A DNA stretch of 35,050 nt from contig NZ_JANWXB010000154.1 of the NCBI RefSeq assembly GCF_025055495.1, positions 1 to 35,050 of the forward strand, read 5' to 3'. Under the pieces are notes generated by a model that worked only from the letters and a program-made list of their open reading frames with translations, had not been told where the DNA came from and did no database searches. The DNA comes from Thermoflexus sp. (GTDB lineage: Bacteria > Chloroflexota > Anaerolineae > Thermoflexales > Thermoflexaceae). The position numbers were made by a program, and so were the translations under genes. Shown here piece by piece: positions 19,765 to 33,340 of this stretch; position 1 is the first letter of the stretch; every line of letters starts with the position of its first letter.

Positions 19765-19806
19765 CGGGGAGGGGATTAACTGCGTAACTCCCATCCCATC
19801 TCACAT

Positions 19807-19838
19807 TCTCCCCGCGCTGCTTCGCGGCATTGGGGAGA
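19807..19838. repeat. Dispersed hairpin element, copy 6
   Basis: TCTCCCC (19807-19813) and GGGGAGA (19832-19838) flank the core CGCTGCTTCGCGGC, shared with the copy at 14.65 kb. It sits between the response regulator stop and the kinase start, only 6 nt before the kinase ribosome site. Confidence 0.65.
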
Positions 19839-19859
19839 GAGGGCGGAGGGAAACCTCAG

Positions 19860-22800
19860 ATGGTCTGGCGCCAGCGTCTGCGTTGGCTTCTAAGACCCAT
19901 TCACGCTCCATCCTCCGGTTCGGCGGCGCGAACGGAGGACGTCTCCTTCCTGGACCGATGGGCAGAACCGGTGCTCTGGATCGAGGCGGGAAGCGGGCGG
20001 CTGTTCCTGAACGCCGCGGCGCGCACCTGGCTGGGCGATCCTATCCCCTCTTCCCGCCACGATCTGGAGGGCCGCCTTCGCCCGTCAGGGGTGCTGGAGC
20101 GCTGGCTGTTGGGCTCCAGAGAGACCGCTGTGATCGGCAATCAAGGCGTCCGGGCCAGCGCCCTTCCGCTGACGCTGGACGGACGACCGGGTTTCCTGGT
20201 AGTTCTTCAGCCTATCCCCGAGGGCTCCAGAGCGACTCCGGAACCCTCGGCCTATCCCCGGGAACTGGCTCTGGTTACCGGGATCGCCCGCTTGCTGAGT
20301 GCCTCCCTCGATCTGGACTCCATGCTGGATGCCATCCTGTTCGCAATCCAGCAGGTGATCTCCTACGATCTCGCCGAGATCAACCTGTGGGAACCTGGAG
20401 AACGTCGGCTCCGCACTCGGGCCCGCGGGGGGGATCCCCAGGCGGTGGCCCGCCTTATGGAATCTGGAGGGGTTTACCGGCCCGACGAAGGTCTTACGGG
20501 CTGGCTGGCTACCCACCGGCGTTCCCTGTTGATCCGGGATCTGCGCGGCTTCACCGACGCGCGCCCTCGCCTGGACCTGGAGCTTTTCCCTGCGCGCGCC
20601 TTTCTGGGCGTGCCCCTGCAAACGGGGGAAGAATTCATCGGGACGCTGGAGCTCATCGCGTATCGCCCGGGCGCTTTCACCGAAGAACACCTGCGCCTCC
20701 TGGAGGCGATCGCTGCCCAGGCAGCCATCGCCATTCACAACGTCCGCCTCTACGAAGCCACCCGCCACTATGTCGAAGGGCTGGAGACCCTCTTCCGCAT
20801 CGCCGCCATCAGCGCCGCCTCCCCTTCCCTGGAAGCCTTCCTCCGGCAGTCTGTAGCGGAACTGGCAGGATGGTTCCGGGTGGAACGGGTGGTGGTCTTG
20901 CTTTATGACCCGAAACGCCAGGAGCTGGCCCCACACCCCGCCGGCCTCTATGGGCCATGGCCGCCGGAAGCCCTGGGGTTCCGCCTCCCGGTGCGGGACC
21001 CCGTGTTTGCACAAAGCGTGTTCCGTGGCGGGCGTCCCTTTCGCTCGAACCGGGCGTCGGAGGATCGTCGGGTGATCCCACCCTATCGGGAGCTGATCGC
21101 CCGCTTTGGCGTCCGCTCCGTCTTATCGATTCCCCTGACGACCCGGGAACAGCCCATCGGGGAGATCCACCTGATCAACCGGTGGGAGGGTCGATTCGCC
21201 CCGGAAGATGAACGTCTGGGGATGGCGATCGGCGTGGTGCTGGGGACCACCCTCCACAACCTTCAGGTGATCGAACAGGCCCGGCGCCGCGCCGCCCGCT
21301 TGCGAGCCCTGGTGGAAATCGGTCAGCGGATCGCCGCCACGCTGGACCTGGATGCGATCTTCGAGACCATTCGAGAAGAGCTTGGGCGCATCCTGGACAC
21401 CCGAAACTTCTACGCCGCACTCTATGAGCCGGAAACGGATGAGATCTCGTTTGCATTTTATATCCACCGCGGAGAGCGCCTGACCGAGCGGCCGAAGCGG
21501 CGCAGCGGCCGGGGCCTGACCGAATATGTGATCCGAACCGGCCAGCCCCTTCTACTGCGAGGCGATGTCATCGATCAGGCAAGGGCGCTGGGGATCGAGC
21601 CGGTGGGAACCCCCGCCCGGCTCTGGATGGGGGTCCCCATGCGGGTTGGCGATCGGGTGATCGGCATGCTGGCCATCCAGCATGAGGAGGACGAGAATGC
21701 TTTCGATGAAGAGGATCTGGAGCTCCTTCAGGCCATCGCGCACCAGACAGCCATTGCCGTGGAGAACGCCCGGCTCTATAGGGAGGTCCACGAGCGTCTG
21801 GAAGCCCGCATCCATCAGTTGACCGCGCTGAACCGCATCGGCCAGGAGCTGAACGCGAATCTGGATCTGGATCACATCCTGAACCTGGTGCTGGATTCGG
21901 CATTTCAGGTCACAGGAGCGGATTATGGTGAGATCCTGCTCTACGAACCGGAGAGCGGTCTCCTGCGCCCTCGCCTGCTCCGTAACCTCTCCCTGGAGCA
22001 ATTGCAGGCCCGGGGCCTGGACCGTCAGCGCCCCGGCGAGGGATTGATCGGCCAGGCCTTCCAGACCGGCCGGGTCGTTCTGGTCCCCGATGTCCGGCAG
22101 GATCCCTATTACATCGCGGGAACGCCAGATACCCTCTCTGAGGTGGCGGTGCCCATCTGGCATGGGACGCTGGTCGTTGGAGTGCTCGATCTCCAAAGCC
22201 GGCGACCCCATGGCTTCAGCGAGGAACAGATCGCCTTCCTGGAAGCCCTGGCGGCCCAGGCCGCGGTGGCCATTGGTAACGCCATGCGCCTGGCGGAGGA
22301 AGCCCAGCGGAGCGAGCGTTATCGCCAGCGCATCGAATTGATGCGGGGGATGCTGGAGGTGAGCCAGGCGCTGCGCTCGGAGCGGCCGTTAGAGAACGCC
22401 CTCGAGGCGGTCGCCTACGCCATCCAGGAATCCATTGGATTTGAACATGTGCTGATCAGCCTGCTGGAGGGCGAGCCCCCGATGCTGCGCCGGGTGGCCC
22501 AGGCCGGGCTTCCCCTTGTAGTGTTCGAGCGAATGCGCCAAGTCTCCCAGCCATGGCGGAACATGCAAATCCTGCTACGAGAGGAATTCCGGCTGGGAGC
22601 CTGTTATTACATCCCGTATGAACGGCAGCCAGAGAACCTGACGGAAATCCTGGATACCTGGACCGCCACGCCGACCCGGGAGCCGCGGCCTGACCCAACC
22701 CGCTGGCATCCAGAGGATCTCCTGATCGTCCCGATATACGGAACCGGCGGACGCCTGCTGGGGATCATCTCCGTGGATGAGCCCCGGGATGGCCGGGCCC

Positions 22801-25800
22801 CTACCCGCGAGACGGCGGAGATGCTGGAGCTGCTGGCCAGTCAGACCGGCATTATCATCGAGAACGCGCGCCTCTATGAGGGGCTGAAACAGCGGATCGA
22901 AGCCCTGACCCGTCTCAACGAGGCCAGCCGCCAGATCGCCGCCCGGCTGGAGCTGGGCGCTCTGTTAGAAGCCATCGCCCAGGCCGCTGCTTCCCTCAGC
23001 CAGGCGATCTGGACCGCAGTGATCCGAACAGAAGAAGGGGGATCTCTACAGGTTGCCGCTCGCTTCGCCCCTCAGGGAGCGGATCGCCTTGCTTCGCTGG
23101 AGACGCTCCTGAATTCCCCCTGGATCATCCAGGCCCTGTCCTCGGGCCGCGTCCTCTACCTCCGGGACCTGGAAGAGGTTCTGGATGGAGACCGCACGGA
23201 GGTGCGCTCGTTGCTCCTCGTGCCGATGCGGGCGGGAGGGGAGATCGTAGGGTGGATCGCGGTGGCCCATCCGGAGCGCGGCGCCTTCGATGAGACCGAA
23301 CAGATCCTCCTCCAGACTCTGGCGGAACAGGCCGCGGTGGCCCTGGAGAACGCCCGGCTTTACGAGCAAACCCGCCGCTTCGGCGAGGAGCTGGAAGCGC
23401 TGGTCCGCGAGCGAACCGAAGCCCTGGAAAAAGCCCTGGCGGACCTGTCAGCCCGCCATCGTCAGCTGGAGTTGCTTTATCAGGTCACTCTGGCGCTGAC
23501 CGCCAGCCTGGAGCTGGAGGCTATCCTTCAGCAAGCGCTATCGCTCCTCGTCGAGGAGGGAGAGACAGCTGCGGTGGTCCTGCTGGATCCCGAGCAGGGG
23601 CGCCTGCAGGTGCGAGCCGGAATCGGGCCGGGCAGCCCGCAGCTGCTGAAGCAATCCTGGTCCCTTCACGAAGATCCCGGTCCGATCCGGACCGCCATCC
23701 GCCAGCGACGGACTCAGAATGTGGTGGGGATCTCCCCAGATCTCCTTCCGGCGCCCTGGCAGGCGCTGCGCCCGGGCGCCGTTCTGGTGGTTCCCCTCAC
23801 CCTGGGCCTGGACGTCTTGGGCGCGCTTGTGTTCACCGACCCGGAGCCGCGGCAGTTTGAGCCGGAGCGGATCCAGCTTCTGGAGACCGTGGCCGCCCAG
23901 ATGGCCCAAGCCATCAACAACGCGGCCCTCTATATGCTGATCACTCAGCAGGCCGAGCAATTGGGTAACACCCTCCGGGCCGTTCAGGAAGAAGCCTCCA
24001 AGCGCCAGGCCATCCTGGAGTCCATTGCCGAAGGCGTGATGGTGGCCGATGCGCGGGGCGAGGTCATCATGATGAACGCCGCTGCCGAGCAGATCCTGGG
24101 GCTGCGCCGGGAAGAGGTCCTCGGCCGGCCGATCCATCATTTCACCGGCCTATACGGGCCCGCCTGGCAGGAGTGGATGGCCTCCCTGCGCCGATGGCTT
24201 TCCTCCCCCCGAGGACAACCGCCGACTCTGTTCACACGCCACGAGCTCGCCCCCGAAGGCCGTTTCATCACCGTCCACGCCGCTCCGGTGATGATGGGCA
24301 CCGAGTTCCTGGGCACTGTCTCGGTTTTCCGAGATATCACACCGGAGGTGGAGGCCGATCGCGCCAAGACCGAGTTCATCTCCACGGTTTCTCACGAGCT
24401 CCGCACCCCTATGACCTCTATCAAGGGCTATGTGGACCTTCTGCTCCTCGGATCGGGGGGGCCGCTTTCCGAGATGCAGTATCGCTTCCTGCAGATCGTG
24501 AAGGCAAACGCGGATCGGTTGAAGTTGCTGGTGGATGACCTGCTGGATATCTCCCGCATCGAGAGCGGCCGCCTTCAGTTAGATCTCCGTCCGGTGCCCC
24601 TGGAGGCAGCGGTGGAAGCCGTGGTAGCCGCTCTGAAGGCTCGCATCGATGAGAAGAACCAGCGCCTGGAGCTCGATCTCCCCGAGTTCCTCCCCCCCGT
24701 CCGGGCGGATAAGGATCGCCTGATCCAGATCCTGATGAACCTGGTCAGCAACGCCCACAAATACACACCAGAAGGCGGGCGGATCCGCATCCGGGCCCGC
24801 ATCGAGGACGAAGCGGTTCACGTGGAAGTCAGCGACACGGGGATCGGCATCCCTCCGGAGGCCCTTCCCCGCATCTTCGAGCGCTTTTATCGCGTGGACG
24901 ACCCGCGGGTCCAGGAGACCCCTGGAACAGGCCTGGGGCTTTCCATCGTGAAAGCCCTGGTGGAGATGCACGGCGGGCAGGTCTGGGTGGAAAGCGAGAT
25001 CGGCAAAGGATCCACGTTCCATTTCACGATCCCCATCGCCTCTGAGGCGCCTGCTCCAGCCGAGCGCCTTCCAGCTTCAGCGCCGGTCCCCGTCCGGGCG
25101 GACGGGGTTTCTCCTATCCTGATCGTGGAAGACGATCGCCATATCGCCGACCTGCTGGTCCAGCACCTAGAGCGCGCAGGATATCGAACCCTGGTCGCTC
25201 ATCGAGGTGAGGAAGCCCTACGCCTCGCCCGGGAGGAGCGTCCGCAGCTGATCACCCTGGACATTTACCTTCCGGACCTCGATGGCTTCACGGTTCTGGA
25301 GCGTCTGAAATCGGATCCGGCGACCGCCGAGATCCCCGTGGTCATCGTCTCCGTCATCGCCGATCGCCAGCGAGGGGTGAGCCTGGGAGCAGTAGACGTG
25401 CTGGGCAAGCCCGTGGACATGGAGCAACTGCTGCGGGTAGTGCATCAATATGCTCGACGGCATGCGCATATCCTGATCGTCGATGACGATGTGGGGACCC
25501 GCTCTCTGCTCCAGGATACCCTGCGCAATCACGGGTTCCAGGTCACCGCCTTCGGGAACGCTGTGGAGGCGCTCGCATGGATTGAGGCCCAGCGCCCCGA
25601 CTTGGTGCTGATGGACCTTAAGCCAGCCGGGATGAGCGGACTGGATGCCTTGGCGCGGCTGAAAGCCAATCCGAAGACCACGGACATCCCGGTGGTGATC
25701 ATGACGGCCAGCGCCACCGATCCGCTGGGGAAGCGCCGTCAGGCCCTGGCCATCGGGGCGACGGACTTCTTCCTCAAGCCGTTCCCGCTGGAGGAGTTTG

Positions 25801-25874
25801 TCGCTACCATCCGGCGTCTCCTCGCCGAACCATCCCAGGGAAAACCTGACACTGAGGGAAAGCACTTCCTGTAG
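19860..25874 (+). CDS. Giant hybrid sensor histidine kinase with seven GAF domains and two receivers
   Basis: This 2004-aa cytoplasmic protein has, in order, an N-terminal PAS-like region (about 25-125); seven GAF domains (approximately 135-307, 308-475, 480-640, 645-820, 825-1015, 1015-1170, 1205-1360); a PAS domain (about 1385-1490); HisKA with His1512 in SHELRTP; HATPase (about 1600-1725) with NLVSNAHKY, DTGIGIP and GTGLGLS; and two receivers with Asp1801 (TLDIYLPDLDG) and Asp1919. GAF ends repeat the A(V/I)A(I/V)xNAxLYE-type helix, so the array looks duplicated. No membrane segment is seen, so signals are likely intracellular. Only one cysteine, Cys915 in GAF5, was found. The ATG at 19860 is preferred over the upstream TTG because GGAGGG precedes it. 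It is flanked by two response-regulator genes. Ligands are unknown. Confidence 0.9.
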   Translation: MVWRQRLRWLLRPIHAPSSGSAARTEDVSFLDRWAEPVLWIEAGSGRLFLNAAARTWLGDPIPSSRHDLEGRLRPSGVLERWLLGSRETAVIGNQGVRASALPLTLDGRPGFLVVLQPIPEGSRATPEPSAYPRELALVTGIARLLSASLDLDSMLDAILFAIQQVISYDLAEINLWEPGERRLRTRARGGDPQAVARLMESGGVYRPDEGLTGWLATHRRSLLIRDLRGFTDARPRLDLELFPARAFLGVPLQTGEEFIGTLELIAYRPGAFTEEHLRLLEAIAAQAAIAIHNVRLYEATRHYVEGLETLFRIAAISAASPSLEAFLRQSVAELAGWFRVERVVVLLYDPKRQELAPHPAGLYGPWPPEALGFRLPVRDPVFAQSVFRGGRPFRSNRASEDRRVIPPYRELIARFGVRSVLSIPLTTREQPIGEIHLINRWEGRFAPEDERLGMAIGVVLGTTLHNLQVIEQARRRAARLRALVEIGQRIAATLDLDAIFETIREELGRILDTRNFYAALYEPETDEISFAFYIHRGERLTERPKRRSGRGLTEYVIRTGQPLLLRGDVIDQARALGIEPVGTPARLWMGVPMRVGDRVIGMLAIQHEEDENAFDEEDLELLQAIAHQTAIAVENARLYREVHERLEARIHQLTALNRIGQELNANLDLDHILNLVLDSAFQVTGADYGEILLYEPESGLLRPRLLRNLSLEQLQARGLDRQRPGEGLIGQAFQTGRVVLVPDVRQDPYYIAGTPDTLSEVAVPIWHGTLVVGVLDLQSRRPHGFSEEQIAFLEALAAQAAVAIGNAMRLAEEAQRSERYRQRIELMRGMLEVSQALRSERPLENALEAVAYAIQESIGFEHVLISLLEGEPPMLRRVAQAGLPLVVFERMRQVSQPWRNMQILLREEFRLGACYYIPYERQPENLTEILDTWTATPTREPRPDPTRWHPEDLLIVPIYGTGGRLLGIISVDEPRDGRAPTRETAEMLELLASQTGIIIENARLYEGLKQRIEALTRLNEASRQIAARLELGALLEAIAQAAASLSQAIWTAVIRTEEGGSLQVAARFAPQGADRLASLETLLNSPWIIQALSSGRVLYLRDLEEVLDGDRTEVRSLLLVPMRAGGEIVGWIAVAHPERGAFDETEQILLQTLAEQAAVALENARLYEQTRRFGEELEALVRERTEALEKALADLSARHRQLELLYQVTLALTASLELEAILQQALSLLVEEGETAAVVLLDPEQGRLQVRAGIGPGSPQLLKQSWSLHEDPGPIRTAIRQRRTQNVVGISPDLLPAPWQALRPGAVLVVPLTLGLDVLGALVFTDPEPRQFEPERIQLLETVAAQMAQAINNAALYMLITQQAEQLGNTLRAVQEEASKRQAILESIAEGVMVADARGEVIMMNAAAEQILGLRREEVLGRPIHHFTGLYGPAWQEWMASLRRWLSSPRGQPPTLFTRHELAPEGRFITVHAAPVMMGTEFLGTVSVFRDITPEVEADRAKTEFISTVSHELRTPMTSIKGYVDLLLLGSGGPLSEMQYRFLQIVKANADRLKLLVDDLLDISRIESGRLQLDLRPVPLEAAVEAVVAALKARIDEKNQRLELDLPEFLPPVRADKDRLIQILMNLVSNAHKYTPEGGRIRIRARIEDEAVHVEVSDTGIGIPPEALPRIFERFYRVDDPRVQETPGTGLGLSIVKALVEMHGGQVWVESEIGKGSTFHFTIPIASEAPAPAERLPASAPVPVRADGVSPILIVEDDRHIADLLVQHLERAGYRTLVAHRGEEALRLAREERPQLITLDIYLPDLDGFTVLERLKSDPATAEIPVVIVSVIADRQRGVSLGAVDVLGKPVDMEQLLRVVHQYARRHAHILIVDDDVGTRSLLQDTLRNHGFQVTAFGNAVEALAWIEAQRPDLVLMDLKPAGMSGLDALARLKANPKTTDIPVVIMTASATDPLGKRRQALAIGATDFFLKPFPLEEFVATIRRLLAEPSQGKPDTEGKHFL

Positions 25875-30101: not shown

Positions 30102-32822
30102 TCATTCCTCCTTCAAGCGCTCCCATTCCGCCCGCAATTGTTCCCGCCGCGCTTTGAGCTCCTCCAGTTTACGACGCTCCTTCTCGACCACCGCCGCCGG
30201 CGCTTTCAACGCGAACTCCGAGGCCAGCAGGGACTCCGTCTTCGCGATCCGCGCTTCTACATCCGTTAGCTCTCGTTCCAGACGGGCCCGCTCGGACGCC
30301 CGATCCACCATCCCCGCCAGCGGCAGATAAATCCGGATCGAACCAGCGAGATAAGCCCGCGCCTCGGCTGGGGGCTCCGACAGATCCGCTAGCAGCACCA
30401 GCCGGTCCGGATCCAGACGCGCCAGCCCGGCCAGCAGACCTCGATGGGCCTCCAGCACAGGCAGGAACTCCCCAGCGGCGATCCACGCCGCGATCCGCCG
30501 TTCCGACGGCACCCGGTGCTCCTCCCGGGCATTCCGGATCGCCCGCACGGTCTCGATCAGCGCCCGCATCCCTGCCTCCGCCGCTTCATCCACCGGCCCG
30601 GGGAGGGGCCAGGAGGCCACGATCAGGGCCTCCGCGCCATCTGTGGCCCCGGTCCGCTTCAGATAGCCCCAGAGCGCCTCGGTGATGAAGGGCATGAAGG
30701 GATGAAGCAGTCGGAGGATCCCATCCAGCACGTAAACCAAAACCCCGCGGGTCCGCGCCTGATCGGCCGCCGTGCCCCGATAAAGGGGCTCCTTGGCCAT
30801 CTCGATATACCAGTCGCAGAACTCATCCCAGGTGAACTCATAGATGCGCCGGCCCGCCTCCCCGAAGTCGAAAGACTCCATCGCTTCGGTGACCGCCGCC
30901 ACTGTGCGATGGTAACGGGAGAGGATCCAGCGGTCCGGCAGGGTAAGCGAGAGATCGTCCATTGAGGGACGCCCGATCGGCCCAGTGAGGGCGCCCAGCA
31001 CGAAGCGGGCGGCGTTCCACAGCTTGTTGGCGAAGTTGCGGCTCCCTTCCACCCGCTGCAAGGAGAGGCGCATGTCATTCCCCGGGGTGGACCCAGTAGC
31101 CAGGGTGAAGCGCAGCGCGTCCGCCCCGTAATCCCGGATCACCACCAGGGGATCGATGACGTTGCCCTTCGTCTTGCTCATCTTCTCGCCCTTCTCATCC
31201 CGCACCAGGCCGTGGAGGTAGACGACCCGGAAGGGGATCTCCCCGGTCATGGCCAGCCCCATCATCACCATGCGGGCCACCCAGAAGAACAGGATGTCGT
31301 AGCCGGTCTCCATCACCGTGGTGGGATAGAAGTAGCGCAGATCCTCCGTGTCATCCGGCCAGCCCAGGGTCGCGAAGGGCCAAAGGGCGGAGGAGAACCA
31401 GGTGTCCAGCACATCCTCATCCTGGCGGATGCGGGCGCTGCCGCAGCGAGCGCAGACGGAGGGATCCTCCCGAGCGACCGTGATGTGCCCGCAATCGTCG
31501 CAATACCAAGCCGGGATGCGATGCCCCCACCAGAGCTGGCGGCTGATGCACCACGGGCGGATGTTCTCCAACCAGCGGAAGTAATCCTTCTCGAAGCGTT
31601 CCGGCAGGATTCGAATGCGCCCCTCCTTCACAACGCGAATGGCCGCCTCCGCCAGGGGCTTCGTGTGGACGAACCATTGAAGCGAGAGCAGCGGCTCCAC
31701 GATGGTGTCGCAGCGCTGACACCGGCCAGGAGCGTAGCGATGGGGTTCGATCTTCACCAGTAGGCCTTCCCGGCGCAGATCCTCCACTAACGCCTCCCGA
31801 GCTCGGAAGCGATCCATCCCAGCGTAGGGGCCGCCGTTCTCGTTGATCGTGGCGTCCGGGTTCATCACATTGACGCGAGGCAGCCCGTGCCGCCCCCCGA
31901 TCTCATAGTCCGTCGGGTCATGCCCCGGCGTTACCTTCACCGCCCCCGTCCCGAACCCGCGATCCACCGCCGGGTCGGCGATGATCGGGATCCGGCGGCC
32001 CAGGGCGGGCAACACGGCGATCCGGCCCACCAGACCGGCATAGCGCTCATCCTCGGGGTGCACCGCCACCGCCGTATCCCCCAGGATCGTCTCCGGGCGT
32101 GTGGTGGCCACCGTGATGAACGCTTTCGCGCCCTCCGCCCAGCGGCCGCTCCCCCATGGCGCAGCGGGGCCCTCCCAGCCGTTCCCCAGCAGCGGATAGC
32201 GGACGTAGTAGAGGAGCCCTTCTTCCTCTTCCTCCCGCTCCACCTCCAGATCCGAAAGGGCCGTCTCGCATCGCGGGCACCAGTTGATGAGATACTCGCC
32301 GCGGTAGATCAGACCCTGCTCGTAGAGGCGGACGAAGGCCTCGCGCACCGCCCGGGAGTAAATCGGATCCATCGTGAAGCGCTCCCGCGTCCAGTCGCAT
32401 GAAGCCCCCAGCCGGCGCAACTGGCGGGTGATGGTGCCCCCGTATTTCTCCTTCCAGGCCCACACCCGCTCCAGGAACCGCTCCCGCCCCAGCTGATGGC
32501 GGGTGAGGCCCTCCTTCGCGATCTCCCGTTCCACCATCACCTGGGTCGCAATGCCCGCGTGATCCGTCCCCGGCACCCAGAGGGTCGGATCTCCTTTCAT
32601 TCGACGATAGCGGATCATCAGGTCCTCGAGGGTCACGAACATGGCGTGGCCCATATGGAGCTCCCCGGTGATGTTGGGCGGGGGCATGGAGATCACAAAG
32701 GGGCGCTGGGCAGGGTCGATCTTCGGTGTGAAGAACCCCCGCTGCTCCCACCATCCGTAAATCGGTTCCTCGATCTCCTGCGGATTAAAGGTCTTGGGAA
32801 GCGCCATCGCTTCCATCGCCAT
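30102..32822 (-). CDS. valS: Valyl-tRNA synthetase
   Basis: The 906-aa class Ia synthetase charges tRNA-Val. The HIGH motif is HMGHA at 56-60, preceded by PPPNITGEL. KMSKT at 547-551 replaces the usual KMSKS. The editing (CP1) domain lies between them. A zinc-knuckle-like CDDCGH...CARCGS and VLDTWFSSALWPF lie near residues 430-480, and the C-terminal coiled coil (about 840-906) is typical of ValS. Length is normal. The ATG at 32822 follows GGGAGG with an 8-nt spacer; a second ATG at 32804 is also possible. The upstream leader contains a T-box riboswitch, so expression should respond to uncharged tRNA-Val. Confidence 0.96.
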   Translation of the reverse strand: MAMEAMALPKTFNPQEIEEPIYGWWEQRGFFTPKIDPAQRPFVISMPPPNITGELHMGHAMFVTLEDLMIRYRRMKGDPTLWVPGTDHAGIATQVMVEREIAKEGLTRHQLGRERFLERVWAWKEKYGGTITRQLRRLGASCDWTRERFTMDPIYSRAVREAFVRLYEQGLIYRGEYLINWCPRCETALSDLEVEREEEEEGLLYYVRYPLLGNGWEGPAAPWGSGRWAEGAKAFITVATTRPETILGDTAVAVHPEDERYAGLVGRIAVLPALGRRIPIIADPAVDRGFGTGAVKVTPGHDPTDYEIGGRHGLPRVNVMNPDATINENGGPYAGMDRFRAREALVEDLRREGLLVKIEPHRYAPGRCQRCDTIVEPLLSLQWFVHTKPLAEAAIRVVKEGRIRILPERFEKDYFRWLENIRPWCISRQLWWGHRIPAWYCDDCGHITVAREDPSVCARCGSARIRQDEDVLDTWFSSALWPFATLGWPDDTEDLRYFYPTTVMETGYDILFFWVARMVMMGLAMTGEIPFRVVYLHGLVRDEKGEKMSKTKGNVIDPLVVIRDYGADALRFTLATGSTPGNDMRLSLQRVEGSRNFANKLWNAARFVLGALTGPIGRPSMDDLSLTLPDRWILSRYHRTVAAVTEAMESFDFGEAGRRIYEFTWDEFCDWYIEMAKEPLYRGTAADQARTRGVLVYVLDGILRLLHPFMPFITEALWGYLKRTGATDGAEALIVASWPLPGPVDEAAEAGMRALIETVRAIRNAREEHRVPSERRIAAWIAAGEFLPVLEAHRGLLAGLARLDPDRLVLLADLSEPPAEARAYLAGSIRIYLPLAGMVDRASERARLERELTDVEARIAKTESLLASEFALKAPAAVVEKERRKLEELKARREQLRAEWERLKEE

Positions 32823-33049
32823 CCTCCACCTCCCTCTTCTGAATCCGGGGCCCTTTAGGAGTGGGAAGGGCCATCAAGGGTGGATCCTCTCCTTCTCACC
32901 CCCAACCCATTTCACTCTCTCCTCCTCACGGTCCAGGGGGCCACCCACAAAACACCTGATCGGGGCTGAAACGGTGAGCAGGACCAGAACCTGCAGAGGT
33001 CCGGAGAACGCGTCAGGGGTCCATTCTCCAGCTTCCCCTAACGCTCTCA

Positions 33050-33089
33050 AATAAAAACGCCCCCTCCGTCACAAGGACGAGAGGGGGCG
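33050..33089 (-). terminator. T-box intrinsic terminator
   Basis: On the minus strand CGCCCCCTC-T-CGTC, a CTTGT loop, then GACG-GAGGGGGCG forms a 13-bp stem with one bulge (plus coordinates 33058-33089), followed by TTTTTATT at 33057-33050. It is the alternative fold to the antiterminator of the T-box. Confidence 0.92.
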
Positions 33090-33340
33090 GACCTCCCGCG
33101 GTACCACCTTGCTTCAGGGGGATCGGAACCGCTCATCCCCCTGCGCTCGGGCTGCGGTAACGGGCAACGCCCGGGCCGGACTCAGGCCAGAGGTAGCGCT
33201 CCGGCGGTCATCCGGCCGGCTCCAGGGCGACCTTCGACACGGCGTGCGACAGGGACTTCCACCGGACCCCCTCGCTGGCGTCGCCGCCTGTGCCTACTCC
33301 TCCCCTTCATCGCCTTTCCGGAAGCGACGGCACGCGTTCA
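33050..33340 (-). promoter_or_regulatory. T-box riboswitch of valS, predicted valine specifier GTC
   Basis: Read on the minus strand, the leader contains the T-box antiterminator AAGGTGGTACCGCGG (complement of 33096-33110), where UGGU can pair with the ACCA end of uncharged tRNA. Upstream are AGTA (33298-33295) and GAA (33235-33233), consistent with the loop-E part of Stem I. They are followed by GTC at 33231-33229, a Val codon, as candidate specifier. A terminator follows at 33050-33089. Thus uncharged tRNA-Val should permit valS transcription. The exact 5-prime end and promoter are not visible. T-boxes are common in Firmicutes and reported in some Chloroflexota. Confidence 0.9.

Follow-up and report, generated by a model that had tools for sequence, protein, structure and literature searches.

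The window, a stretch of 35,050 nucleotides from Thermoflexus sp., carries on its minus strand valS (30102-32822), which encodes a valine--tRNA ligase of 906 aa identified by Pfam and by NCBIfam NF004349 (1180 bits) and TIGR00422, both above cut-off. Upstream of this gene, a leader with a G+C content of 71% extends on the same strand from GGAAAGGCGATGAAGGGGAGGAGTAGGC... at 33319 to an intrinsic terminator at 33059, and 236 nt separate the terminator stem from the valS ATG. Using an E-value threshold, cmscan aligned the Rfam T-box family RF00230 to positions 33319-33070 of the minus strand with 68.8 bits and an E-value of 8.6e-15. The match is full-length, covering model positions 1-219 of 219, and takes in Stem I, Stem II, the Stem IIA/B-F-box region, Stem III, and the antiterminator. 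The curated gathering score of RF00230 is 93 bits, and because the sole good match falls under it, an Rfam scan of the window at the default gathering cut-off returned zero matches. A genome-wide RF00230 search recovered the same location together with five further T-boxes. The earlier note on this DNA had proposed a T-box before valS with a canonical T-box sequence, an antiterminator/terminator pair, and a GTC specifier candidate; the covariance model matches, though below its gathering score, and all three named elements are present. A BcKCsr2 match over the same stretch scored 20 bits where the cut-off is 40 and was regarded as chance, as were the remaining weak Rfam matches in the window, and a plasmid collection searched with the leader sequence gave no match. 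Elsewhere in the window, an ORF of 2014 aa carrying domains of a hybrid sensor histidine kinase occupies 19830-25874 on the plus strand.

The anatomy of the leader can be followed along the minus strand. In Stem I, the 5' strand of the specifier-loop S-turn reads AGUA (33298-33295) and is invariant in eight genus sequences, and the valine codon GUC (33231-33229), in the context GAA-G-GUC-G-CC, stands at the specifier position of the RF00230 alignment and is likewise invariant in the genus. The F-box CCGUUA (33163-33158), conserved in relatives, marks the F-box/Stem IIA-B region, for which pseudoknot pairing is predicted. The T-box sequence is AAGGTGGTACCGCG, and GGTGGNACCRCG has a single match in the window when both strands are counted. 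The antiterminator (33111-33072) consists of CAAGG/CCUUG, a 7-nt bulge UGGUACC, and GCGGGAG/CUCUCGU. Across 19 sequences its positions are paired in 98.1% of cells, three pairs are changed on both sides, and its covariation score exceeds those of all 500 shuffles. The intrinsic terminator stem (33088-33059), followed by the U-tract TTTTTATTT, covaries in relatives as well. For both structures, relatedness among the sequences inflates scores of this kind. The two structures share 33088-33072 and so cannot coexist, and the terminator is the more stable, with folding energies of -26 to -30 kcal/mol versus -12.5 to -17.3 kcal/mol for the antiterminator. An antiterminator with a 7-nt UGGNACC bulge that is mutually exclusive with an intrinsic terminator is as expected for a class I T-box.

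The five other T-boxes of the same genome carry the specifiers UGG (trpS), UUC (pheS), AUC (ileS), UGG (trpE), and CUC (ilvE/leuS region). Including valS, the specifiers match their genes in six of six cases, and the specifier frame is therefore secure, with GUC in the specifier loop of the valS Stem I read in the same frame as the other five. On contig C296 (L005 568-2339 and beyond), two tRNA-Ala genes precede the Leu (CUC) T-box, and downstream of it lie a small membrane-protein-like ORF, ilvE, and a leuS-like gene. The trpE T-box on contig C419 (L006 1501-1929) was split in two by Rfam because about 130 nt lie between its F-box region and its antiterminator; a tandem T-box was considered for this contig and rejected, as both partial hits are accounted for by a single trpE T-box carrying an insertion ahead of its antiterminator.

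The host, a hot-spring bacterium, belongs to Thermoflexus (NCBI class Thermoflexia), in the Chloroflexota, and hence lies outside Firmicutes, as the earlier note had held for this T-box; its ValS shares 91% protein identity with the one from Candidatus Thermoflexus japonica HRbin22. Eight Thermoflexus sequences, of which two come from the same genome, were aligned: conservation is almost complete along the leader but not in either flank, and the specifier, T-box, F-box, and terminator are intact throughout. These elements and their conservation are seen directly in the alignment. A further Thermoflexus genome, G007, also carries a valS T-box, and outside the genus an RF00230 match was found upstream of valS in 17 of the 22 class genomes read; in one of the 17, L033, the match is about 800 nt upstream of the gene. 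Nearly all the class alignments shown have GUC as the valS specifier, with GUA in L026. In another class member, a Molybdenum/tungsten cofactor riboswitch match lies near valS (L025 1418-1300, minus strand). Each of the class genomes tested (11/11) yielded between 5 and 7 T-box matches. Only one of the six T-boxes in this genome passes the gathering cut-off, as does one in G004, and none of those in G001, G003, G005, or G008 does; at the curated threshold, most Thermoflexus T-boxes are missed. The earlier note had added that T-boxes outside Firmicutes are less common and help trace transfer; in this class, T-boxes are routine, so nothing points to a recent transfer to valS. A GC-rich, strongly folding leader that scores under the gathering score might in principle resemble T-box motifs by chance. 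This explanation is refuted by the E-value of the match, the gene-matched specifiers throughout the genome, and the conservation of the T-box before valS across the class, and we give it practically no weight.

Taken together, the element before valS is almost certainly an ordinary class I transcriptional T-box riboswitch that reads uncharged tRNA-Val. From the known mechanism of the family, we infer tRNA binding and read-through for this leader as follows. The nascent leader would capture tRNA-Val(GAC), with the GUC specifier pairing with the anticodon and the Stem I and Stem II regions contacting the tRNA body. The free ACCA end of an uncharged tRNA would pair with UGGU in the bulge (33106-33103) and stabilize the antiterminator, allowing RNA polymerase to continue into valS. 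With a charged tRNA, formation of the terminator with its U-tract, the more stable of the two structures, would end transcription.

The predicted pairing of UGGU with the ACCA 3' end draws on the tRNA-Val(GAC) of a one-contig relative in the same genus, G004, which ends in ...CCGCCC-A and whose discriminator A73 fits UGGU; the corresponding gene of the window's own genome is not in the assembly. Among the matches read, the tRNA-Val genes of this assembly have UAC and CAC anticodons and tRNA-Val(GAC) is absent, and the relative's locus, used as a query, retrieved no orthologue from this assembly. In G004 (L174 1501-1893), tRNA-Val(GAC) lies about 80 nt upstream of a low-scoring T-box (29.8 bits, UGGA) that precedes thrS, and this tRNA-Val(GAC)-thrS leader segment is likewise absent from the window's assembly, which comprises 427 contigs and is 93% complete. 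The simplest reading is that tRNA-Val(GAC) lies on a missing contig.

One part of the leader departs from the family pattern. In the RF00230 alignment, this leader has a degenerate Stem II S-turn, with UGAC/CUGAG in place of AGUA/GAA; valS leaders across Thermoflexus have UGAC or UGAAC against CUGAG or CUCAG at this position, and AGUA on the 3' side occurs in none of the eight genus valS sequences. Within this genome, the T-boxes of trpS, pheS, ileS, and trpE retain the Stem II S-turn. Because a number of relatives in the class have full T-box matches and likewise lack AGUA/GAA, the Stem II S-turn was regarded as common but not obligatory and was not treated as defining class I membership. An A-minor motif in this S-turn favors C at the third position of the specifier (TBDB, PMC7778990), and the valS specifier GUC still ends in C. 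We tentatively raise the idea, doubtful as it is, that the Thermoflexus valS T-box swapped the canonical Stem II S-turn for another internal loop (UGAA/CUGAG-like, possibly with tandem sheared G-A pairs), which might clamp the codon-anticodon helix slightly differently in a thermophile.

The stretch between the terminator and valS (32823-33058, minus strand) is a spacer whose character emerged from the genus alignment and from repeat searches. The earlier note had described a gap of about 230 nt that could hold another element; the length is borne out by the 236 nt measured, and the second element is not, as the spacer is not conserved in the genus. It does not align across the eight Thermoflexus sequences, is of intermediate length in G001 and G008, and measures just a few tens of nucleotides in G003, G004, and G006, where the T-box stands directly before valS. 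Strings of TGGGACCGCG that follow some valS starts fall within the coding region and were taken to be coding sequence. In the sister species G005, the spacer contains a palindromic repeat bounded by the terminal inverted repeats TTAGGACTTACGCAGTT and AACTGCGTAACTCCTAT. Searching the window's spacer against its own genome gave short matches only and led to a dispersed repeat, whose core CYCTGGRCCGTGAGGAGG occurs 86 times in this genome versus 2 times for a control. Matches to the repeat end sequence number 403 in G005, 39 in the window's genome, and 32 in G004, and reversed controls gave none. Dispersed palindromic repeats of this kind, with terminal inverted repeats (AACTGCGTAACTCCTAA ends, GGGCCGTGGGGAGG core), are also represented at 19778-19794 of the plus strand of the window, and the repeat looks like a MITE-type family expanded in one species. 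The window's spacer holds one exact match to the core, 22 nt long (32921-32942), although the core pattern was itself drawn from this spacer, and local alignments of the spacer with the repeat stay at about the level of the best shuffle (29 against 25, 28 against 30). Judged by these matches, any repeat copy in the window's spacer would be at most a 22-nt remnant.

These observations bear on two other accounts of the region. The length of the gap and the core match within it could be taken to indicate a second conserved regulatory element downstream of the T-box. Such an element is highly improbable, since it would have to reside in a spacer that cannot be aligned across the genus and nearly vanishes in three genomes, that matches Rfam families at chance level only, and that is close to shuffle level in its similarity to the repeat; growth by insertion, given the repeat in the G005 spacer, is a simpler account. 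The other account holds that the leader is decayed, its RNA persisting without a tRNA response while valS is expressed mainly from another promoter. Directly after the terminator lies a weak promoter-like site, TTGAGA-16-GAGAAT (33050-33023, minus strand; 9 of 12), where 0.1 such sites in the spacer would be expected from shuffles, and the degenerate Stem II S-turn and the long spacer point in the same direction. However, this site was not seen in the spacer of the sister species, and decay is at odds with a T-box that is far more conserved than its flanks and retains its specifier, T-box, F-box, and terminator in all eight genus sequences. Decay of the leader accordingly seems very unlikely, and a working class I T-box remains our reading of the locus.

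T-boxes in Chloroflexi have been established since 2008, and a T-box survey by Vitreschak and colleagues reportedly appeared in the RNA journal in that year. Our literature search found no paper naming both T-box and Thermoflexus. For two Chloroflexi genomes, Wels et al. (2008) listed six T-boxes (ileS, trpE, trpB-like; PMC2494555). The present genome resembles those of Dehalococcoides, from the same phylum, in that ileS and trpE are preceded by T-boxes here too, but a valS T-box is not reported in that list (PMC2494555). According to Wels et al., ileS, leuS, and valS are the most widespread T-box targets (PMC2494555), and TBDB collects 23,535 T-boxes and covers 3,632 species (PMC7778990). The element shares with class I members of RF00230 the AGUA/GAA specifier loop of Stem I, the F-box, the UGGN bulge, the terminator/antiterminator switch, and an aminoacyl-tRNA synthetase target, and differs from them in its GC-rich leader, its sub-gathering score, and a Stem II S-turn without AGUA. 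Like the valS T-boxes of Firmicutes, it has a Val specifier before valS, but it belongs to a different phylum. The mechanism is no surprise, and the value of the finding lies in annotation and in tracing T-box ancestry. A well-supported valine T-box is added to a phylum with few described in print, and genomes of the class have about 5-7 T-boxes each, many of which escape annotation because GC-rich leaders score below the Rfam cut-off.
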